Shown here: positions 8,403 to 20,347 of the stretch, in pieces
How positions within the stretch are numbered: position 1 is the first letter of the stretch
Layout of the letters: each line of letters begins with the position of its first letter
Assembly: GCA_022760435.1 (NCBI GenBank)
Contig: JALEFY010000031.1
Coordinates: forward strand, 62,001-126,000
Length of the DNA stretch: 64,000 nt
Direction: 5' to 3'
DNA from: Neomegalonema sp.
Lineage (GTDB): Bacteria > Pseudomonadota > Alphaproteobacteria > Rhodobacterales > Rhodobacteraceae
Position numbers and translations under genes: made by a program
Notes under the pieces: model-generated
The model's input: the letters and a program-made list of their open reading frames with translations, nothing else
Database searches by the model: none
What the model was told of the DNA's origin: nothing

Positions 8403-9146
8403 ATGAGACAGGCCGAGACCCGGGATGCCTTCGAGGCACGGCTGCGCGCCATCGGCGCCGAGCGCTATCACGACAAGCACCCCTTCCACGCCCTGCTGCA
8501 TTTGGGCGGCTGCACGCAAGATCAGGTCCGGGCCTGGGTGCTCAACCGCTACTGCTATCAGGAGGCAATCCCGCGGAAGGATGCCGCCTTCATCTCGCGG
8601 GTCGAGGATCCGGCCCTGCGCCGGGCCTGGCGCTCGCGGATCGAGGATCACGACGGCAGTGCCGAGCATGAGGGCGGCATTGCCCGCTGGCTCCGGCTCG
8701 CCGAGGCGGTGGGGCTCGACCCCGATTACGTCGCCTCCAAGCGCGGGGCGCTGCCCGCCACCCGGTTCGCGGTCGAGGCCTATGTGCGCTTCGTGCGCGA
8801 GATGCCGCTGCTCGATGCGGTGGCGTCCTCGCTGACCGAGCTCTTCGCGCCCAAGATCCACAAGGACCGCATCGCCGGGCTGCTCGCCCATTACGATTTC
8901 GCCAATGAGGCCTCGCTGGCCTATTTCCAACGCCGGCTCAGCGAAGCGCCGCGCGATGTCGCCTTTGGGCTGGCATTCGTGCTCGATCATGCCGACACGC
9001 TGGAAAAGCAGGACGCCGCCGCCGCCGCGCTGACCTTCAAGACCGATGTGCTCTGGGCGCAGCTCGATGCCCTGCACAGCGCCTATGTCGAGCCGGGGCG
9101 GGTGCCGCCCGGCGCCTGGCAACCGGGCGAGGGGATGCTGGCATGA
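8403..9146 (+). CDS. pqqC: PqqC, pyrroloquinoline-quinone synthase
   Basis: A 247-residue enzyme that carries out the last step: ring closure and eight-electron oxidation of AHQQ to PQQ, with O2 and no metal cofactor. The sequence has YHDKHPFHALLHLGGCTQDQVRAWVLNRYCYQ, IPRKDAAFISR, and the ELFAPKIHKDRIAGLLAHYDF block typical of this all-helical family. It starts 10 bp after pqqB and overlaps pqqD by 4 bp (ATGA). Confidence 0.96.
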   Translation: MRQAETRDAFEARLRAIGAERYHDKHPFHALLHLGGCTQDQVRAWVLNRYCYQEAIPRKDAAFISRVEDPALRRAWRSRIEDHDGSAEHEGGIARWLRLAEAVGLDPDYVASKRGALPATRFAVEAYVRFVREMPLLDAVASSLTELFAPKIHKDRIAGLLAHYDFANEASLAYFQRRLSEAPRDVAFGLAFVLDHADTLEKQDAAAAALTFKTDVLWAQLDALHSAYVEPGRVPPGAWQPGEGMLA

Positions 9147-9427
9147 GCGCGCTCAAGGACAGCGATGTGCCGCTCTTGCCGCGCGGGGTGCGCCTGCGCG
9201 AGGATGCGGCGCGGGGTGGCTGGGTGCTGCTCGCGCCCGAGCGGGTGCTGACCCTCGATCCGATCGCGGTGGCGGTGCTGCGCGAGCTTGACGGGGAGCG
9301 CGATTTCGCCGCCATCACCGCCGCGCTCGCCGCCGCCTATGCCGCGCCCCAAGAGGTGATCGCCAAGGACGCCCGCGCCTTTCTTGAGGATCTGATGGAC
9401 AAGCGCATGGTCGAGGTGGCGCCGTGA
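9143..9427 (+). CDS. pqqD: PqqD, PqqA-binding chaperone
   Basis: A 94-residue small wHTH-like peptide chaperone (RiPP recognition element) that presents PqqA to PqqE. Characteristic text: LPRGVRLREDAARGGWVLLAPERVLTLDPIAVAVLREL, then LAAAYAAPQEVIAKDARAFLEDLMDKRMV. It overlaps both pqqC (ATGA) and pqqE (GTGA), as expected for tight co-translation with its partner PqqE. It is a separate gene here rather than fused to PqqC as in some methylotrophs. Confidence 0.95.
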   Translation: MSALKDSDVPLLPRGVRLREDAARGGWVLLAPERVLTLDPIAVAVLRELDGERDFAAITAALAAAYAAPQEVIAKDARAFLEDLMDKRMVEVAP

Positions 9428-10548
9428 GCCAGATCCCCCCGCCTCCGTCGGCAATGCTGGCCGAACTCACCCATCGCTGCCCGCTCTCCTGCCCCTATTG
9501 CTCGAACCCGCTGGAGCTGACCGCGCGCGAGGCCGAGCTTTCGGCGCCGCAATGGGCCGAGGTCTTCACGCAAGCCGGTGCGCTCGGGGTGCTGCAAGTG
9601 CATCTGTCGGGCGGTGAGCCGCTGGCCCGGCGCGATCTGCCCGATCTGGTGAGCGCGGCGGTGGCGGCGGGGCTCTATACCAATCTGATCACCTCCGGCA
9701 TCGGGCTGACCGAGGCGCGGCTGAAGGATCTGGCGGGGCGCGGGCTCGACCATATCCAGCTCTCGATCCAGGGTCCGAATGCGCAGATCGCCGATCGGGT
9801 CGGCGGCTACAAGGGCGGCTATGACAAGAAGATGGAGGTCGCGGGCTGGATCGCTGCCGAAGGCATCCCCCTGACCGTCAACGCGGTGATGCATCGGCAC
9901 AATCTCGATCGGCTCGAGGAGGTGTTCGCGCTCGCGCTGCGGCTCGGGGCGCGGCGGCTCGAGGTTGCGACGGTGCAGTTCCATGGCTGGGCGGCGCGCA
10001 ACAAGGCAGCCTTGATGCCGACCCGCGCGCAGGTTGAGGCGGCGAACAGGTCGGTGGCGGCGGCGCGCGAACGGCTCAAGGGGCGGTTGGTGATCGACTA
10101 TGTGCCGGCCGATTACTATGCCCGCTTTCCCAAGCCCTGCATGGGCGGTTGGGGGCGGGTGGGTCTCGTGGTCACCCCCGATGGCACGGTGATGCCCTGC
10201 CACGCCGCGCACACGATCCCGCATCTGCGCTTCGAGAACGCAAAGGACACGCCGCTCGCGCAGATCTGGACGGGCAGCCCGGCCTTCAACGCCTATCGCG
10301 GCACGGACTGGATGCGCGAGCCCTGTCGGTCCTGCGATCGGCGCGAGGTCGATTTCGGCGGCTGCCGCTGTCAGGCGATGGCCTTTGCCGGTGCGGCGGA
10401 AGAAGCCGACCCGGTCTGCGAGAAATCGCCCCATCACGGCGTGATGGCAGCAATGGCGGAGGCGTCGGTAGCGCCGGAGCTTGAGGGCGGATCACCCGGC
10501 GGGGGGGCGATTGATGACGTTGCCTTTACCTATCGCGATAACGCCTGA
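9424..10548 (+). CDS. pqqE: PqqE, radical SAM PqqA Glu-Tyr cross-linking enzyme
   Basis: A 374-residue radical SAM/SPASM protein that makes the C-C bond between Glu and Tyr of PqqA. The radical SAM cluster is C19-x3-C23-x2-C26 (CPLSCPYC), followed by LSGGEPLARRDL. Auxiliary cluster cysteines are in the C-terminal half: CMGGWGRVGLVV, VMPCHAAH, and CRSCDRREVDFGGCRC. GTG start inside the pqqD stop (GTGA). Its 3' end overlaps the following regulator gene by 35 bp. Confidence 0.96.
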   Translation: MSQIPPPPSAMLAELTHRCPLSCPYCSNPLELTAREAELSAPQWAEVFTQAGALGVLQVHLSGGEPLARRDLPDLVSAAVAAGLYTNLITSGIGLTEARLKDLAGRGLDHIQLSIQGPNAQIADRVGGYKGGYDKKMEVAGWIAAEGIPLTVNAVMHRHNLDRLEEVFALALRLGARRLEVATVQFHGWAARNKAALMPTRAQVEAANRSVAAARERLKGRLVIDYVPADYYARFPKPCMGGWGRVGLVVTPDGTVMPCHAAHTIPHLRFENAKDTPLAQIWTGSPAFNAYRGTDWMREPCRSCDRREVDFGGCRCQAMAFAGAAEEADPVCEKSPHHGVMAAMAEASVAPELEGGSPGGGAIDDVAFTYRDNA

Positions 10549-13985: not shown

Positions 13986-14639
13986 ATGCTGGGATATCTG
14001 CGCGCGCTGGGCACGGGCGCCTATCTGCTTCATCAGGGCGCCTCCTCGCTGCTCGATCGGCAGGCTGAGCAGGCGGTGGAGGCCGTGCGCGAGGAGCTGG
14101 TCGGCCGCTTCTCCGCCGAGCTCAAGGCGCAGACCCATGAGACCTTGCTGGCCGCCGCCGCCTCGGGACTGGTGAAGATCGCCGTGCTGTCGCTGGTGAT
14201 GATCGCCCATCGCTATGCGGTGTTCGGCGATCAGGCGCTGTTCTGGATCCTGGTGTTTCTCACCCTCGCCTTCGTCGCTGTGGATACGGTGCGCTTCTGG
14301 CCCAAGGCGCGGGCGGCGCTCGTCTATCTGCGCGCCAGCCGCTTTCGAGTGCTCGCCGCGGTCAAGCTCGCGATCAAGGATCAGGTCTATGCCCAGATCA
14401 AGGCGCGGGTCGAGGAGCGGGCGGGCGGGCTGCTCAGCAAGGCCGTCCATGCGGTGGCCCTGCGCGATCGTCAGCAATTCACCGCCAGCCTGACCGACAG
14501 GATCTACAAGCGCTATGAGTCCGAATTGCTGCTCAAGATGATGGAGCATATCGGCGCCGAGATCGGGCGGATCGCGCTGATCTTCACCACCTATCTGGTG
14601 TTCTCGCTCGCCTTTATCGGCCCGCTGCTGGCAAGGTAA
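13986..14639 (+). CDS. Membrane protein of unknown function
   Basis: A 217-residue protein, not recognised. It has a helical N-terminal part rich in Ala/Glu (HQGASSLLDRQAEQAVEAVREELVGRF), two membrane segments around residues 63-83 and 91-104, a long basic amphipathic middle, and a final hydrophobic stretch IFTTYLVFSLAFIGPLLA. Start ATG 13986 after GAAGAGGAC. It is divergent from the ABC exporter and convergent with the secreted six-cysteine protein. No signal peptide. Confidence 0.6.
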   Translation: MLGYLRALGTGAYLLHQGASSLLDRQAEQAVEAVREELVGRFSAELKAQTHETLLAAAASGLVKIAVLSLVMIAHRYAVFGDQALFWILVFLTLAFVAVDTVRFWPKARAALVYLRASRFRVLAAVKLAIKDQVYAQIKARVEERAGGLLSKAVHAVALRDRQQFTASLTDRIYKRYESELLLKMMEHIGAEIGRIALIFTTYLVFSLAFIGPLLAR

Positions 14640-14655
14640 GCGAGACGCTCGCCGC

Positions 14656-15798
14656 TTACCGCTTGCGCGGGGCGAAGACGCCGAGTTCGGGCTGGTAGAT
14701 CAGCACCGTATCGGCATCGCAGACCAGCGCTTTCACGCCGTTTTGCACCATGCCGAGGATGCCGACCCGCTTGCAGCTTGCATCGTTCAGATCGGGGTCA
14801 TTTGCGATATGGTCCATGACTGCAATCGGCGGCGTGCCATTGGAGAGCCGCACCTCGCAATCATTGAGCCGCCCCCAGCGATCCCAGAACCCGCAGCGCA
14901 GCAGGTCATCCTTGCCATCGCTGTCGAAGTCATGCAGCAGGCGGATCCGGCCTTCTTCATCCTTCTTCTCGTTGTAATAGTCGCTTGAGCGCAGGTTCAC
15001 GAGCGCCTGAACCTCGCGGCGCACGGATTTGGAGAGGGTGGCGGGCTTGCCATCGCGGATCGCGTGATAGGAGATCGTCTCTTCATAATCATCGGTGCTC
15101 GACCCCTCGTTCTTGGAGACGAATTTCACCGCCCAGCCGCCGTCGCGCACTTCCAGTTCGGGCGGGTTCACATCGGGGAAGGAATAGACATCCTCGATCT
15201 GCTCGACCGAGAAATGCCCGTCGCCATGATAGACCACGAAGGCGTAATCGGGCGGGCAGCAATTGCCGCCGCCGAAGATCGAGATCAACGCGTCCTCGGT
15301 GCCGTTGCCGTCGAAATCCTCGGTGAACAGGATCTCGATGCGGAACATCTCCCATTCCTGGATCTGGTAGCGCAGCCCATCAACATCACCCCAGAGCGTG
15401 CCATTGTAGAAATCGACCGAGGTGACCTCATAGGTCACCGGCTCGGTGGGCTCAGGCGGGCGCGCGGCGCTGCCGCTGCGCTGGGTGCGCACGCCGCCGC
15501 ATTCGCGGGCGACATCCATCAGGCAACTGCGATAGGCGGCAAACTGTGCCTCGCAATCGCGCGGCTGGGCGGCGACCTCGCCGGTGCCGGCATCGATGAC
15601 CCCGGCGCCGAGCCGGGTCAGGCAGACGGCCGCGACCTGTTTTCCGCAGGTGGCTTGCGGTGCCGAGCAAAGCTGGGATTGTTGCGCCTGTGCCGGCGCG
15701 ATTGGCAGCGCAAGCAAGAGGGGAATGGCGAGCAGGAGCGGAACTGCGCAGACGCAAAGGATCGGGTTCTTGAAAGTCCGGGCAATCGCTGCTCGCAT
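14656..15798 (-). CDS. Secreted protein: six-Cys domain plus calcium-type DxDxDG repeats
   Basis: A 380-residue exported protein. The signal peptide is long (about 38 residues, ending APAQAQQ). Then comes a domain with spacing C-x6-C-x7-C-x22-C-x9-C-x7-C, containing LTRLGAG and AAYRSCL, which is shared with the protein at 18390-19154 and not recognised as a known family. The C-terminal half has two FG-GAP/EF-like metal loops, DFDGNGTEDALI and DFDSDGKDDLLRC, as in extracellular VCBS-type proteins, and a NCCPPDY motif. RBS GGGAG 7 bp before the ATG. A divergent protease cluster begins 291 bp away on the other strand. Confidence 0.72.
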   Translation of the reverse strand: MRAAIARTFKNPILCVCAVPLLLAIPLLLALPIAPAQAQQSQLCSAPQATCGKQVAAVCLTRLGAGVIDAGTGEVAAQPRDCEAQFAAYRSCLMDVARECGGVRTQRSGSAARPPEPTEPVTYEVTSVDFYNGTLWGDVDGLRYQIQEWEMFRIEILFTEDFDGNGTEDALISIFGGGNCCPPDYAFVVYHGDGHFSVEQIEDVYSFPDVNPPELEVRDGGWAVKFVSKNEGSSTDDYEETISYHAIRDGKPATLSKSVRREVQALVNLRSSDYYNEKKDEEGRIRLLHDFDSDGKDDLLRCGFWDRWGRLNDCEVRLSNGTPPIAVMDHIANDPDLNDASCKRVGILGMVQNGVKALVCDADTVLIYQPELGVFAPRKR

Positions 15799-15828
15799 CG
15801 GGTTGCTCCCTCATCATCACGTGGTCTG

Positions 15829-15911
15829 ATCTTGGTGCGAACTTGGCGCAAACTTGGCCAGACCTTGGCTGGATCTTGGCCCGAACCTGCCCCAATCCTG
15901 GCCCAGGTCGG
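15829..15911. repeat. Array of about seven degenerate (A)CTTGG repeats at 10-12 bp spacing
   Basis: In the 291-bp divergent gap 15799-16089, the motif A-C/T-C-T-T-G-G or a close variant starts at about 15829, 15841, 15852, 15862, 15873, 15885 and 15895. The spacing is close to one DNA turn. The block sits 30-115 bp upstream of the ATG at 15798. It may be a multi-site operator or simply a decayed tandem repeat. No gene is evident in the gap. Confidence 0.55.
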
Positions 15912-16089
15912 TCGCTCGGGTGTAGGCCGGAACCCGAATGTCGCCTCAAACGCGAGTTAAAGCTAGTGCATCCTTAACAGCCACGCCAAGCTCGGATAAG
16001 CAAGGTGGCAGAAATAGCGTGCATTCAAAGAGTGCTTGGCCGGGCGACAGGCGTTGCCAGGCCGACAGTATGATCGGGAGGCAAATCAT

Positions 16090-16701
16090 ATGCGCATCGG
16101 ATCCGCGATGAAGGTGGCGATCGCCGCACTGCTCGCTCTGGGGAGCGTTGCCCCGGCTGGGGCCGAGATCTGTGATGTCAAATTCTATGATTCCCATCTG
16201 GGCAAGATCACGGGAGATGCGGATCGGCGCTGGCAGCGCGGCGATCAGTTCATTCTTTGCTTTACTCCAACCTCCGATGGCTTTGCCTCGCTATGGGACC
16301 GCATTCCGAGCAATGCACCGGTCGAGCGGCTGGTGCCCAATGCCAATTACCGCGGTGTGGGTGAGAAAGCGGCGCTGGTCGCGGGCGGGCAGGAAACCTG
16401 CTTTGGCACCGGCAAGGATGGCTATTATCTGGTGATGGATCCGGCTGATGGCGACGGGTTCGGGCTGATGTTCCTGATTTTTCAGGAGAAGGAAGATCTT
16501 CATCCGACAGAGGCCAGCTTTGACACCGGGCGCCGCTTCGCCAGCCGGTATGAGGCGCTCGGGGCCGGTACCATCGCGGTCGGGCCCGAGGCGGCGCAAG
16601 AGCATGACGCACAGACCGCCGCGCCCGAGGGAGCGGCACGCTCTTGCCCCAATGGCCAGCGCCCCCGCAAATCCTTCAATTACAGCTATCGCGTGGAGTG
16701 A
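16090..16701 (+). CDS. Secreted DUF4384-like protein
   Basis: A 203-residue protein with signal peptide (ALLALGSVAPAGAE). After it comes a domain matching the DUF4384 pattern: RGDQFILCFTPTSDGFASLWDRIPSNAPVERLVPNANY (family theme: property of being read into a surface, 'GD...... S D GY L.L...P.G....L.PN'). A second Cys pair (ETCFGTGKDGYY) may form a disulfide. DUF4384 domains often accompany proteases or kinases in surface or stress modules. Strong RBS GGGAGG. The trypsin-like gene starts 4 bp after its stop, so they form an operon. Confidence 0.72.
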   Translation: MRIGSAMKVAIAALLALGSVAPAGAEICDVKFYDSHLGKITGDADRRWQRGDQFILCFTPTSDGFASLWDRIPSNAPVERLVPNANYRGVGEKAALVAGGQETCFGTGKDGYYLVMDPADGDGFGLMFLIFQEKEDLHPTEASFDTGRRFASRYEALGAGTIAVGPEAAQEHDAQTAAPEGAARSCPNGQRPRKSFNYSYRVE

Positions 16702-16705
16702 GCCG

Positions 16706-17629
16706 ATGCGCGCCTGTCACCGTGTTCTGCGTGCCGCCCTGCTGGTTGCTGCGCTGGCGCTTTTGCCCGTCGCAACCGCGCTCGCGCAGCAAATCGGGCT
16801 CGATCTGAACAAGAAGATGTCTTGCCGCGATGTCGAGCTGGGCGAGTCGGTCTTTCATGTGGCGGGCGGGACGGATGCGGATCCGCGCAAATATCCGTTC
16901 ATCGTTCAGCTCAATATCAATGGCGCCAATTGCGGCGGATCGCTGATCGCGCAAGGGCTGGTCCTGACCGCGGCCCATTGTGTTTTGCGCAGCGATCTGA
17001 GCTTGCGCGTCGATGCCGGGATTGACGGCCGCCTTGATGATCCACGCCAGATCGTGGTGCGGCGGCCCTCCTCCGATGGCAGGGCCGCGGGAGAGCAGCG
17101 CGGGGTGAGCCGGATCTTCGTTCACCCCAAATTCGACTACCGCCAGCTTGATGGCGATGTCGCGATCCTGCGGCTTGATAGCCCCTTTGACATGCCCGAT
17201 CGCGAGCTCGTCACCCTCGCGGATCAATGGCTCGATGGCGGCTTTGCTGCGGGCGGTGAATGTGCTCGGGTCGCTGGCTGGGGGCGCACCGATGTCCTCG
17301 GCTCGGATCTGAAAGTCGTCACGCGCGGCAAGCAAACCGAACTGTTGCAAGAGCTCAATCTCGAGATTGTCGAGCAGGAGCGCTGCGAGAAACGCTATCC
17401 GCGCTATGTGACCGAAAACATGATGTGCGCGGGCGATGGTGTGCCTGGCTTCAACACTTGCAAGGGCGATAGTGGCGGTCCGCTGGTTGTAGATGTCGGC
17501 GGTCCGGTGCAGATTGGTGTCGTGAGTTGGGCCTTTGGCTGTGCGCAGGCGGAGCACTACTCGGTCTTTGCTCGCGTCGGTGCTCCGGAAATCAGAGGAT
17601 GGATTGATGAGACGATTTTCGGCCGCTAG
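16706..17629 (+). CDS. Secreted trypsin-like serine protease (S1 family)
   Basis: A 307-residue protein with signal peptide (ending ATALAQQ). A full chymotrypsin-fold triad is visible: H91 in TAAHC, D151 in GDVAIL, S256 in CKGDSGGP. The fold's N-terminal sequence VAGGTDADPRKYPFIVQL resembles the activation site IVGG of zymogens, so cleavage before VAGG could activate it. Paired cysteines follow trypsin (NCGGS...AAHC; MMCAGDG...NTCKGDSGG). S1 proteases are uncommon in Alphaproteobacteria outside the HtrA type. It overlaps the next gene by 23 bp. Confidence 0.9.
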   Translation: MRACHRVLRAALLVAALALLPVATALAQQIGLDLNKKMSCRDVELGESVFHVAGGTDADPRKYPFIVQLNINGANCGGSLIAQGLVLTAAHCVLRSDLSLRVDAGIDGRLDDPRQIVVRRPSSDGRAAGEQRGVSRIFVHPKFDYRQLDGDVAILRLDSPFDMPDRELVTLADQWLDGGFAAGGECARVAGWGRTDVLGSDLKVVTRGKQTELLQELNLEIVEQERCEKRYPRYVTENMMCAGDGVPGFNTCKGDSGGPLVVDVGGPVQIGVVSWAFGCAQAEHYSVFARVGAPEIRGWIDETIFGR

Positions 17630-18365
17630 GGGCCTCTTCGTCCTTTCTTTACTGGGCCTGCTCCTTGTTCTGCCCGGACAAAGAGCGCAGGCGCAGATCC
17701 TCGATTGCTCGATCATGGATTGCCTGGACGCGTCGTACCTGCCGCCTTCGGGGCCCAATGACATGGCCGAAGTGATCCGCCGCGCGCAGGGGTTTTACGG
17801 CGTTGATACAAGGGTCTATGTGGTCTCGCATCGCGAGTCCGCTGCCAAGCTGCCGGTCTTTGTGCTCAAGCGCCCCGGTCTGATCGATGCCGACCAGATC
17901 CATGTGCCCGACATCTATCATGCCTCGATCGAGTTCCAGCATGCGGGCGAGAAGCATTTCATCTGGCACTACATCATCGGCCATGAGATGGCCCATGCCT
18001 TCCAGAAGCATAGCCGCCTGATCGAGGCGATGGGGGCGGGGATGTTCCGGTCCAATGTCGCGGTCGAGCTGCACGCCGATTTCATGGCCGGGTTCTTTCT
18101 GGGCCGAGAATATGGGCTCGATGTGCTGGCGATCGACCAACTGGCTCGGGAGCTGGAAACCATCCCCGCTGGCAAGCCAGGCGATGTGCATTTCCACGGT
18201 GCGCCGCGTCAGCGCTATTTCGTGATGACCCAAGGGGCGCTGTTTGCCCTGCGCCGCCCGGTGCCGACGCTCAATGAGGCCAATGCCGAAGCGATTGGCG
18301 TGGCTTTTGATCATATTCCGAATGCGACACAGACCAAACCGGGCTGGCCCGCGCTCGGGCAATGA
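17607..18365 (+). CDS. Secreted HExxH zinc metalloprotease-like protein
   Basis: A 252-residue protein with signal peptide (ending QRAQAQ). It carries IIGHEMAHAFQKH (H126, E127, H130: gluzincin-type zinc site) followed about 24 residues later by ELHADFMAG (E154), a plausible third ligand, so the catalytic centre looks complete. An N-terminal Cys pair (LDCSIMDCLD) may make a disulfide. No family name can be given beyond zincin. Start overlaps the trypsin gene by 23 bp, indicating co-translation. Two proteases of different mechanism in one transcript is noteworthy. Confidence 0.75.
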   Translation: MRRFSAARGLFVLSLLGLLLVLPGQRAQAQILDCSIMDCLDASYLPPSGPNDMAEVIRRAQGFYGVDTRVYVVSHRESAAKLPVFVLKRPGLIDADQIHVPDIYHASIEFQHAGEKHFIWHYIIGHEMAHAFQKHSRLIEAMGAGMFRSNVAVELHADFMAGFFLGREYGLDVLAIDQLARELETIPAGKPGDVHFHGAPRQRYFVMTQGALFALRRPVPTLNEANAEAIGVAFDHIPNATQTKPGWPALGQ

Positions 18366-18389
18366 CAACACGGCGATAGGAGAAGAGCG

Positions 18390-19154
18390 ATGCTAAAGTT
18401 CGAAAGAGTGACGGCGCTTCTCGGCGCCTGCCTGATGGCGATCTTCCTGACAGCGCCGGGCGCTTGGGCAGAGCAGGCGGGGGGGCAGGATTTCTGCGCC
18501 AATCCGCAAAAGAGTTGCGCGCGCATGGTCAGCCCGTCTTGTCTGCAACGGCTCGGGGCAGGCTCGGTCGAGGCCGGTGAAGATCAGGCGGGCTCGTGCG
18601 CCGAGCAGTTCAAGGCCTATCGCAGCTGTCTGCAAACCGTGGCCAATCTGTGCCCACGCACCAGTTCCCCGGCTCCGACGCCGTCCCCGGTGCCCGCACC
18701 GGTCTCCAAGCCTGCGCCTTCGGGGGGCGGCGATGCGGCTCGGGTTGAATATTGCCGCGATAGCATGCAGACCTGCCTGTCCGATGTGTCCGATGATTAC
18801 AGCTCCTGCGCATATGGCGAGAGCTCCGATTGCCAAAGCCAATGCCGTGATCAGCGCAATCTGGCGCGCGAGGATTGCCGAGAAAGCCACAAATCCTGCC
18901 TGACCACCGGGTTCTTCGAGCCGGTGGTGTTCATCGAGCCTGCTTGCCTGGGTGAGGCAACGCCGACCAGTGACTATCCACCGGCAGCGCCCTATCCGCC
19001 TGCGACGCCGCAAGCGCAGTATTCCTATATCTGCCGCAATGGCCTTTACTGGTGTCAGATGTTCCAGGCTGGCCCGGTCGGCACGCCCTGCTGGTGCAAT
19101 GCCAATCCGATGACCGGCGTGCCTTACTTTGAAGGGTTCATCTCCTCCAATTGA
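18390..19154 (+). CDS. Secreted Cys-rich protein with six-Cys domain and Pro-rich linker
   Basis: A 254-residue exported protein: signal peptide (ending PGAWAEQ), a six-cysteine domain with spacing C-x6-C-x7-C-x18-C-x9-C-x7-C and the shared QRLGAG and KAYRSCL text of the protein at 14656-15798, then a Pro/Ala/Ser linker, then a second Cys-rich part (YCRDSMQTC, SDCQSQC, REDC, SCL) and a final CRNGLYWC...PCWC. In total more than 18 cysteines, which implies a disulfide-rich extracellular protein. It is last in the 16090-19154 operon (RBS GGAGAAG) and overlaps the MFS gene by 31 bp tail to tail. Confidence 0.75.
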   Translation: MLKFERVTALLGACLMAIFLTAPGAWAEQAGGQDFCANPQKSCARMVSPSCLQRLGAGSVEAGEDQAGSCAEQFKAYRSCLQTVANLCPRTSSPAPTPSPVPAPVSKPAPSGGGDAARVEYCRDSMQTCLSDVSDDYSSCAYGESSDCQSQCRDQRNLAREDCRESHKSCLTTGFFEPVVFIEPACLGEATPTSDYPPAAPYPPATPQAQYSYICRNGLYWCQMFQAGPVGTPCWCNANPMTGVPYFEGFISSN

Positions 19155-20347
19155 TCGTGACCGCTGCGCAGGCGCGAGAGTGCCAGCGCGGCAATGAGAC
19201 CTGACGCGGCGAGCAAGGCGGAAAAGCCATAGCTTGCCGCACCAAAGGACGGGTAGAGCATGGCAGCGGCCCAGGTCGCCAGCGCCATGCCGACACCGCC
19301 GGAGACCGCCGAGACCAGCCCTTGCGCCGATCCAACCAGCTTTGGCGGCGCATTGTCCGAAACAAAGCCGATCACCGAAAGATGCATCAGCCCGAAGCTG
19401 AAGGCATGCAGGGTTTGCAAGGCGAAGGCTGGCAAGGCGCTCGGGTCGAGGCTCATAAGCCCCCAACGCATCGCGCCGCCAACTGCCGCGAGCATCAGCG
19501 CATGGGCGGAGCCGAGCCGTGCCATCACCGAACGTCCGATCCAGAACAGGAAGATCTCGGCCATCACCCCCCAGGCCCAGAGCGCGCCGATCAGCGTCTC
19601 CGAATATCCCAATGAACGCCAATGCACCGAGCCATAGGCATAGAAGATCGCATGGCTGGCATTGATGCAGGACGCAGCCAGCAGGAACAGCGCGAAGCGG
19701 CGCTCCTTGAGCAGGGCCAGCCCGGCAATGAGCGCGGGGCGCTCGGATCTGGTGGTGCGCAGCAAGGGCGCATGCCATCCGGCCCAGGCGACGATGAGGC
19801 TGGCAAGGGCTGCGAACCAGATCACCGCATCAGTGCCCAGTCCCTGCATCAGCAGCCCGACGCTCAAGGTTGCGGCCAGAAAGGCGAAGGACCCGATCGA
19901 GCGTGCGCGCCGGTAGGAAAACCCGAGCCGCAGCGAGGCCGCATAGCCATGCGCATCCGAGAGCGGTATCAGCCCGGCAAAGCAGCCCGCGATCAGGATC
20001 TGGAGCATCAGCAAGTGCAGCGGATCGCGCCAGATCAGGCTCGATAGCGCCCCGAGCATCGCGCACAGCGCCAGCAAGCCCAGCATGGCGGCCGGATGCC
20101 CCCAGCGATCGGAGAGTGCGGGCAGGGCCAGTCCGGCAGCGATCTTGCCGACCATGGCGAGGGTCAGGATCTGGCCGATCCGTTCATCGCTCAGCCCCTG
20201 GGCGCTCAGCCAGAGCGGACCGAAGGCCATGAAGGCGCCCAGCGCCATGAAGATCCCGCCATAGAGGATCGAAAAGCGCAACTCATGCTGCCAGGGCGAT
20301 GGGGACTTTTCGTGGGCGCCTGCGGAGGATGTTGCCGGGGGCGTCAT
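19124..20347 (-). CDS. MFS transporter, HcaT/phenylpropionate-permease-like
   Basis: A 407-residue major facilitator with about 12 membrane segments. The opening ...RFSILYGGIFMALGAFMAFGPLWLSAQGLSDERIGQIL matches the MFS_1-like/HcaT branch, where the N-terminal YF..F...G.. P.L..... L G S...IG pattern is diagnostic. Substrate unknown; the branch name derives from phenylpropionate uptake in E. coli. Its ATG overlaps the mobB stop (ATGA), so it is expressed with mobAB, an unusual partner. Its 3' end overlaps the Cys-rich gene by 31 bp on the opposite strand. Confidence 0.82.
   Translation of the reverse strand: MTPPATSSAGAHEKSPSPWQHELRFSILYGGIFMALGAFMAFGPLWLSAQGLSDERIGQILTLAMVGKIAAGLALPALSDRWGHPAAMLGLLALCAMLGALSSLIWRDPLHLLMLQILIAGCFAGLIPLSDAHGYAASLRLGFSYRRARSIGSFAFLAATLSVGLLMQGLGTDAVIWFAALASLIVAWAGWHAPLLRTTRSERPALIAGLALLKERRFALFLLAASCINASHAIFYAYGSVHWRSLGYSETLIGALWAWGVMAEIFLFWIGRSVMARLGSAHALMLAAVGGAMRWGLMSLDPSALPAFALQTLHAFSFGLMHLSVIGFVSDNAPPKLVGSAQGLVSAVSGGVGMALATWAAAMLYPSFGAASYGFSALLAASGLIAALALSRLRSGHDQLEEMNPSK

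Follow-up and report, generated by a model that had tools for sequence, protein, structure and literature searches.

Results

Organization of the locus

The window analyzed here is a 64,000-nucleotide stretch of the genome of a Neomegalonema sp. (G000), in which a first-pass annotation had drawn attention to five neighboring genes; all five open reading frames, together with the HEMAH motif and the catalytic triad ascribed to their products, were reproduced in our analysis. The minus strand encodes six-Cys protein 1 (14656..15798; 380 aa), which carries a signal peptide, a six-Cys domain at approximately residues 44-100 and an FG-GAP-like C-terminal part that matches FG-GAP_3 at an E-value of only 0.49. 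The 291-bp divergent gap contains an 11-bp direct repeat with the core CTTGG (15828..15904, seven units), which lies 30-106 bp upstream of six-Cys gene 1. The plus strand encodes an exported DUF4384-like protein (16090..16701; 203 aa), an exported S1 trypsin-fold serine protease (16706..17629; 307 aa), an exported zincin (17607..18365; 252 aa) whose start overlaps the trypsin gene by the 23 bp described earlier, and six-Cys protein 2 (18390..19154; 254 aa), which has a signal peptide, a six-Cys domain at approximately residues 33-89 and a second cysteine-rich half ending CRNGLYWCQMFQAGPVGTPCWC. The tight packing of the exported plus-strand genes (DUF4384-like, trypsin and zincin) was likewise reproduced, with export and the signal peptides of the five proteins judged by eye. 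An Rfam scan of window positions 14000-20000 gave no match, and PADLOC and PHROGs gave no convincing match on the locus. Elsewhere in the window (8403-10548), genes that by eye read as pqqC, pqqD and pqqE of PQQ biosynthesis are followed by a gene resembling a membrane-bound winged-helix regulator. As the comparisons below make clear, the locus holds two separate things, a conserved exported protease operon and a family of six-Cys proteins.

The exported protease operon

The likeness of the first operon protein to DUF4384 is clearer in its orthologs; the window protein itself falls below threshold (16.2 bits against PF14326, E 0.011, with a Pfam cut-off of 27 bits). Orthologs occur in five genera, and the four that were scanned score better, at 21-26 bits and E-values of 9.9e-6 to 2.9e-4 (three of them between 1e-5 and 5e-5, the remaining one at 3e-4), with one reaching 27.4 bits in a genome scan. 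No such reservation applies to the trypsin-like protease, which matches PF00089 at 151 bits (cut-off 20.6; E 4.4e-44) and shares with the S1A enzymes the fold, the GDSGG motif and a complete His-Asp-Ser triad, as identified by alignment and visible in TAAHC, GDVAIL and GDSGG. It differs from them at chymotrypsin position 189, where the alignment reads Asn in the window and in the related genome G403, while the enzymes of two more distant operons (type A, below) keep the Asp of trypsin; as such, the window and G403 enzymes probably do not share the specificity of the type A enzymes.

The zincin (HEMAH...ELHAD) is best described as a distant relative of the KPN_02809/YpfJ proteins (NF050010, PF04228), of which the YpfJ protein from Klebsiella has been shown to be active as a zinc protease (PMC3269727). 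Each of the five operon zincins scanned gives a match to NF050010, with E-values of 3e-7 to 1e-3 (7.8e-5 for the window protein), but at 19-30 bits they lie far under the curated cut-off of 250 bits and outside the family as so defined; PF04228 was matched by one ortholog, at an E-value of 0.15. The likeness consists of the HExxH and ELxAD region, and the operon zincins are further set apart by a signal peptide and by their operon context. Both the HExxH motif and the downstream Glu of ELxAD, which we take to be the third zinc ligand, do not vary among the five operon zincins that were aligned and are also found in the G902 protein. Export, the triad and the zinc motif together make it likely that these are active periplasmic or surface proteases. 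A search of genome contigs for the zincin by degenerate patterns gave no match. G171 encodes a second, paralogous exported zincin (L003 1007-2220, contig C2, minus strand; 29% identical to the window zincin), which is followed by a gene for an exported SH3-like protein in a context unlike that of the operon.

The neighbors proved to be conserved together, as the first-pass annotation would have predicted. The order DUF4384-trypsin-zincin is the same in four genera (G000, G403, G171 and G409), and DUF4384-zincin is found without a trypsin at the locus in G396, where a six-Cys gene follows, and in G902. The operons fall into two types, type B (G000, G396, G403 and G902) and type A (G171 and G409), the latter ordered as lipoprotein, DUF4384-like, trypsin, zincin and two further exported proteins. 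The DUF4384-trypsin-zincin set of G403 adjoins metG, and the operons of G396 and G902 both adjoin an MFS transporter and metG. In an alignment without G902, operon proteins are 39-57% identical within a type and only 20-38% identical between types, which argues that the unit is old. It is also rare, with strong zincin matches in 4 of 293 relatives and additionally in G171, and core zincins in 5 of the 395 genera that were sampled within the family; a plasmid search with the zincin and six-Cys protein 2 gave no match. The operon is thus, to judge from these alignments, a rare, old and order-conserved exported set that spans two deep branches of the family, and this combination is the usual mark of a functional unit. 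The earlier claim of one exported functional unit is accordingly supported for DUF4384-(trypsin)-zincin, and for the downstream six-Cys gene in two genomes only. The last gene of the type A operons (L012 9821-10696; L108 3435-4358) encodes an exported protein without a family match, in which HDNE...NRNF...LHNN recalls the M14 carboxypeptidases by eye; it is possibly a very divergent M14-like enzyme, and Pfam, NCBIfam and PDB lend the carboxypeptidase assignment no support.

The six-Cys domain and its family

The cysteine spacings of the two window domains are exactly as first reported, C-x6-C-x7-C-x22-C-x9-C-x7-C in six-Cys protein 1 and C-x6-C-x7-C-x18-C-x9-C-x7-C in six-Cys protein 2, with RLGAG and AYRSCL common to both. 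A search with one recovers the other at an E-value of 8.6e-11, and the two domains are therefore homologous beyond chance. The initial failure to recognize the domain was borne out, as none of the Pfam and NCBIfam families reaches its threshold over this region. A search of the same genome with the 18390-19154 protein found three further members outside the window (E <=5e-8), two of them in tandem on contig C35 and the third on C31; the tandem pair (L010 8883-10963) is 30% identical over its length, indicating local duplication within the family. When all candidates were scored, five copies were counted in G000, 25 in G396 (all at E <=2.6e-8; a profile built from the five of G000 had first revealed many members there), one in G403, four in G902 and none in G171 or G409, for a total of 35 members in four genomes. 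G396 is Rhodobacteraceae MAG.057, recovered from a Posidonia banquette (PMC8547425). Across the class, in 385 genomes with at most 16 candidates scored in each, the domain was found in the Neomegalonema genome and in none of the 384 others, and a DNA-pattern search returned MAG.057 together with two apparent chance matches devoid of any six-Cys profile match. Weak matches in other genomes (E 1e-3 to 1e-2), mostly partial, were taken as chance.

In an assembled set of 34 members, the median distance from the start codon to the domain is 25.5 residues, and at least six cysteines are kept in 32. The domain thus follows the signal peptide immediately. The C-terminal parts vary, with PG_binding_1 in at least nine members, an FGE-sulfatase domain in four, a caspase domain in one and, in some, a remainder without a Pfam match. 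Taken together, the sequences describe a module, as yet without a name, that forms the N-terminal part of an expanded family of exported proteins. Both window proteins have full-length orthologs in G396, six-Cys protein 1 at 31% identity over 367 aa (E 7e-45; contig C293) and six-Cys protein 2 at 38% over 226 aa (E 1e-42), and a six-Cys protein of 484-497 aa is common to G396 and G902 at 52% identity. The C-terminal half of six-Cys protein 2 (18735-19150) has a cysteine pattern of its own, ending CRNG-Y-C-M-QAGP-G--C-C, which is kept in the G396 ortholog, and we regard this half as a second unnamed module.

The fold of the six-Cys domain was approached by several routes, and the weak matches obtained pointed consistently to the mitochondrial CHCH proteins. 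Weak Pfam matches to UPF0203 and CX9C were seen in 10 and 7, respectively, of 24 natural domains (best 0.0026), and in none of 24 shuffles with the cysteines fixed. All 24 chains returned by a profile search of the PDB were of the mitochondrial CHCH type, although not significantly so (best E 0.08), and a shuffled profile returned no such chain. Two AlphaFold2 runs that differed in the leading sequence, but drew on a single alignment of five sequences, both predict four helices with a final helix of 20-22 residues (mean pLDDT 75 and 74), and Foldseek placed CHCH chains among its top matches, none of them significant (best E 1.6 and 4.6). A viral fold library gave no meaningful match. The domain shares with Mdm35/TRIAP1 (UPF0203), COX17, CHCHD5, NDUFS5 and UQCRH a C-x9-C helix with C-x-x-x-F-x-x-Y-x-x-C-L, predicted helices and an oxidizing compartment. 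However, it is bacterial, is exported by a signal peptide and has six cysteines, and C-x9-C is found in the second half only, on which the match mainly rests; the first half reads C-x6-C-x7-C with RLGAG, so that the twin CX9C pattern is lacking. We conclude that the domain is predicted to be helical and cysteine-rich, with a resemblance to CHCH proteins that is consistent but weak, and for which convergence is likelier than kinship.

Discussion

Neither the operon nor the six-Cys domain was found described in the literature searched, which lay mostly outside subscription journals, in keeping with the initial statement that no known system could be matched. What is newly recognized here is an unnamed exported domain family, present in up to 25 copies per genome, that is tracked by a rare and conserved protease operon. 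When the same 293 relatives were searched with both profiles, four genomes gave clear zincin matches, and clear six-Cys matches were confined to three of these four. G902, which was found through its zincin, was then seen to have four six-Cys genes. The suggested co-occurrence of the six-Cys domain with the proteases therefore holds in one direction, as all four six-Cys genomes carry the type B zincin branch, but not in the other, as the type A operons of G171 and G409 exist in genomes without any six-Cys protein even with all candidates scored. Since all four genomes with the domain could belong to one clade, this correspondence is suggestive only. At the level of gene order, the same six-Cys ortholog directly follows the zincin in the window and in G396 (L105 5166-6053, minus strand). 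Bracketing of the proteases by two six-Cys proteins, as originally proposed, looks local to the Neomegalonema genome: the genes to either side of the operon on its G396 contig are unrelated, and the ortholog of the divergent gene lies on another contig, placing that gene outside the conserved unit.

Given these associations, we tentatively favor an exported envelope proteolysis module in which six-Cys proteins would serve as clients or adaptors, a reading that we hold at somewhat less than even probability. The six-Cys domain would fold in the oxidizing periplasm into a disulfide-stapled helical unit, and may give a range of otherwise unrelated envelope proteins a shared means of docking or anchoring; peptidoglycan-binding domains are present in many of these proteins, and such partners point to the envelope of the producer itself. 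The zincin, together with the trypsin where present, would process or police six-Cys and other envelope proteins, with the DUF4384 protein as a putative adaptor or regulator; a precedent is the fusion of DUF4384 to trypsin and pseudo-caspase domains in other alphaproteobacterial proteins (PMC6426788). If six-Cys proteins are indeed substrates of the protease, the two would offer a new example of co-evolution between a protease and a shared N-terminal module. Against such a module stand the occurrence of the type A operons where there are no six-Cys proteins, the absence of the trypsin from the locus in two six-Cys genomes, and the possibility that co-occurrence reflects only the common descent of four related genera. 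Furthermore, no conserved cleavage motif was seen C-terminal to the six-Cys domain, and the conserved Arg of RLGAG is no obvious target for a trypsin with Asn rather than Asp at position 189. A much bolder version, in which the domain is a true bacterial CHCH relative and the periplasmic docking tag of a large exported family maintained by a dedicated envelope protease, we consider very improbable. The recurrent resemblance, weak as it is, nonetheless means that whether mitochondrial CX9C domains arose in bacteria can be asked concretely of this family.

The possibility that the exported endoproteases simply digest environmental protein for nutrition, and that the six-Cys proteins are envelope proteins with no connection to them whose genes adjoin by chance, is the best of the alternatives, although we judge it unlikely. 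All of the products look exported, most six-Cys genes are dispersed at other loci, and the type A operons add a lipoprotein and two exported proteins, one of which is M14-like by eye; that carboxypeptidase reading, however, found no backing in the databases, and a nutritional role leaves unexplained the DUF4384 protein, the match between the six-Cys family and the type B zincin, and the six-Cys gene behind the zincin in two genomes.

Less probable still is a stress or death module akin to the prokaryotic caspase systems, in which DUF4384 and trypsin would have been split into exported genes and the zincin would replace the caspase. Alphaproteobacterial proteins that fuse DUF4384 and trypsin to pseudo-caspases, as trypsin / QC pseudo-orthocaspase / DUF4384 fusions, have been reported (PMC6426788), and they resemble the present operon in pairing an active-looking trypsin-like domain with DUF4384 within the Alphaproteobacteria. 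They differ in being one fused protein with a p20 domain, whereas here the genes are separate and exported, a zincin takes its place, and a Pfam scan of the five window proteins detected no caspase p20 domain. Caspase-like proteins that match DUF4384 weakly do occur in G000, G396 and G403, and one six-Cys protein (L041 1345-2580, contig C126 of G396) bears a caspase domain (Pfam 6.7e-16) that by reading appears to lack the catalytic His and Cys, making it a probable exported pseudo-caspase; this gene is but one of 35, the operon contains no caspase gene, and all of its members look exported.

Small cysteine-rich exported domains can be protease inhibitors, and this, along with the variable C-terminal domains and copy numbers of 1 to 25, would suit an antagonistic role, in which the proteases are secreted to attack competitors, hosts or prey and the six-Cys proteins are either surface effectors or inhibitors that shield the producer. 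We hold this to be quite improbable, as neither a dedicated secretion system nor an immunity gene or toxin domain could be recognized, PADLOC and PHROGs were unconvincing, nothing specific was found for the predation or host interaction raised in the first-pass annotation, and the peptidoglycan-binding and FGE domains indicate the envelope of the producer itself.

Last, the repeat that had been noted in the divergent gap is real, at approximately seven 11-bp units. CTTGG occurs five times at exact 11-bp steps (15831-15875), after which the array is degenerate to 15904, and none of 20,000 shuffles held even three CTTGG in register. A genome-wide search found the array once, at this locus only, which rules it out as a regulatory site common to the six-Cys genes; a promoter element and an unstable repeat are the candidate readings.
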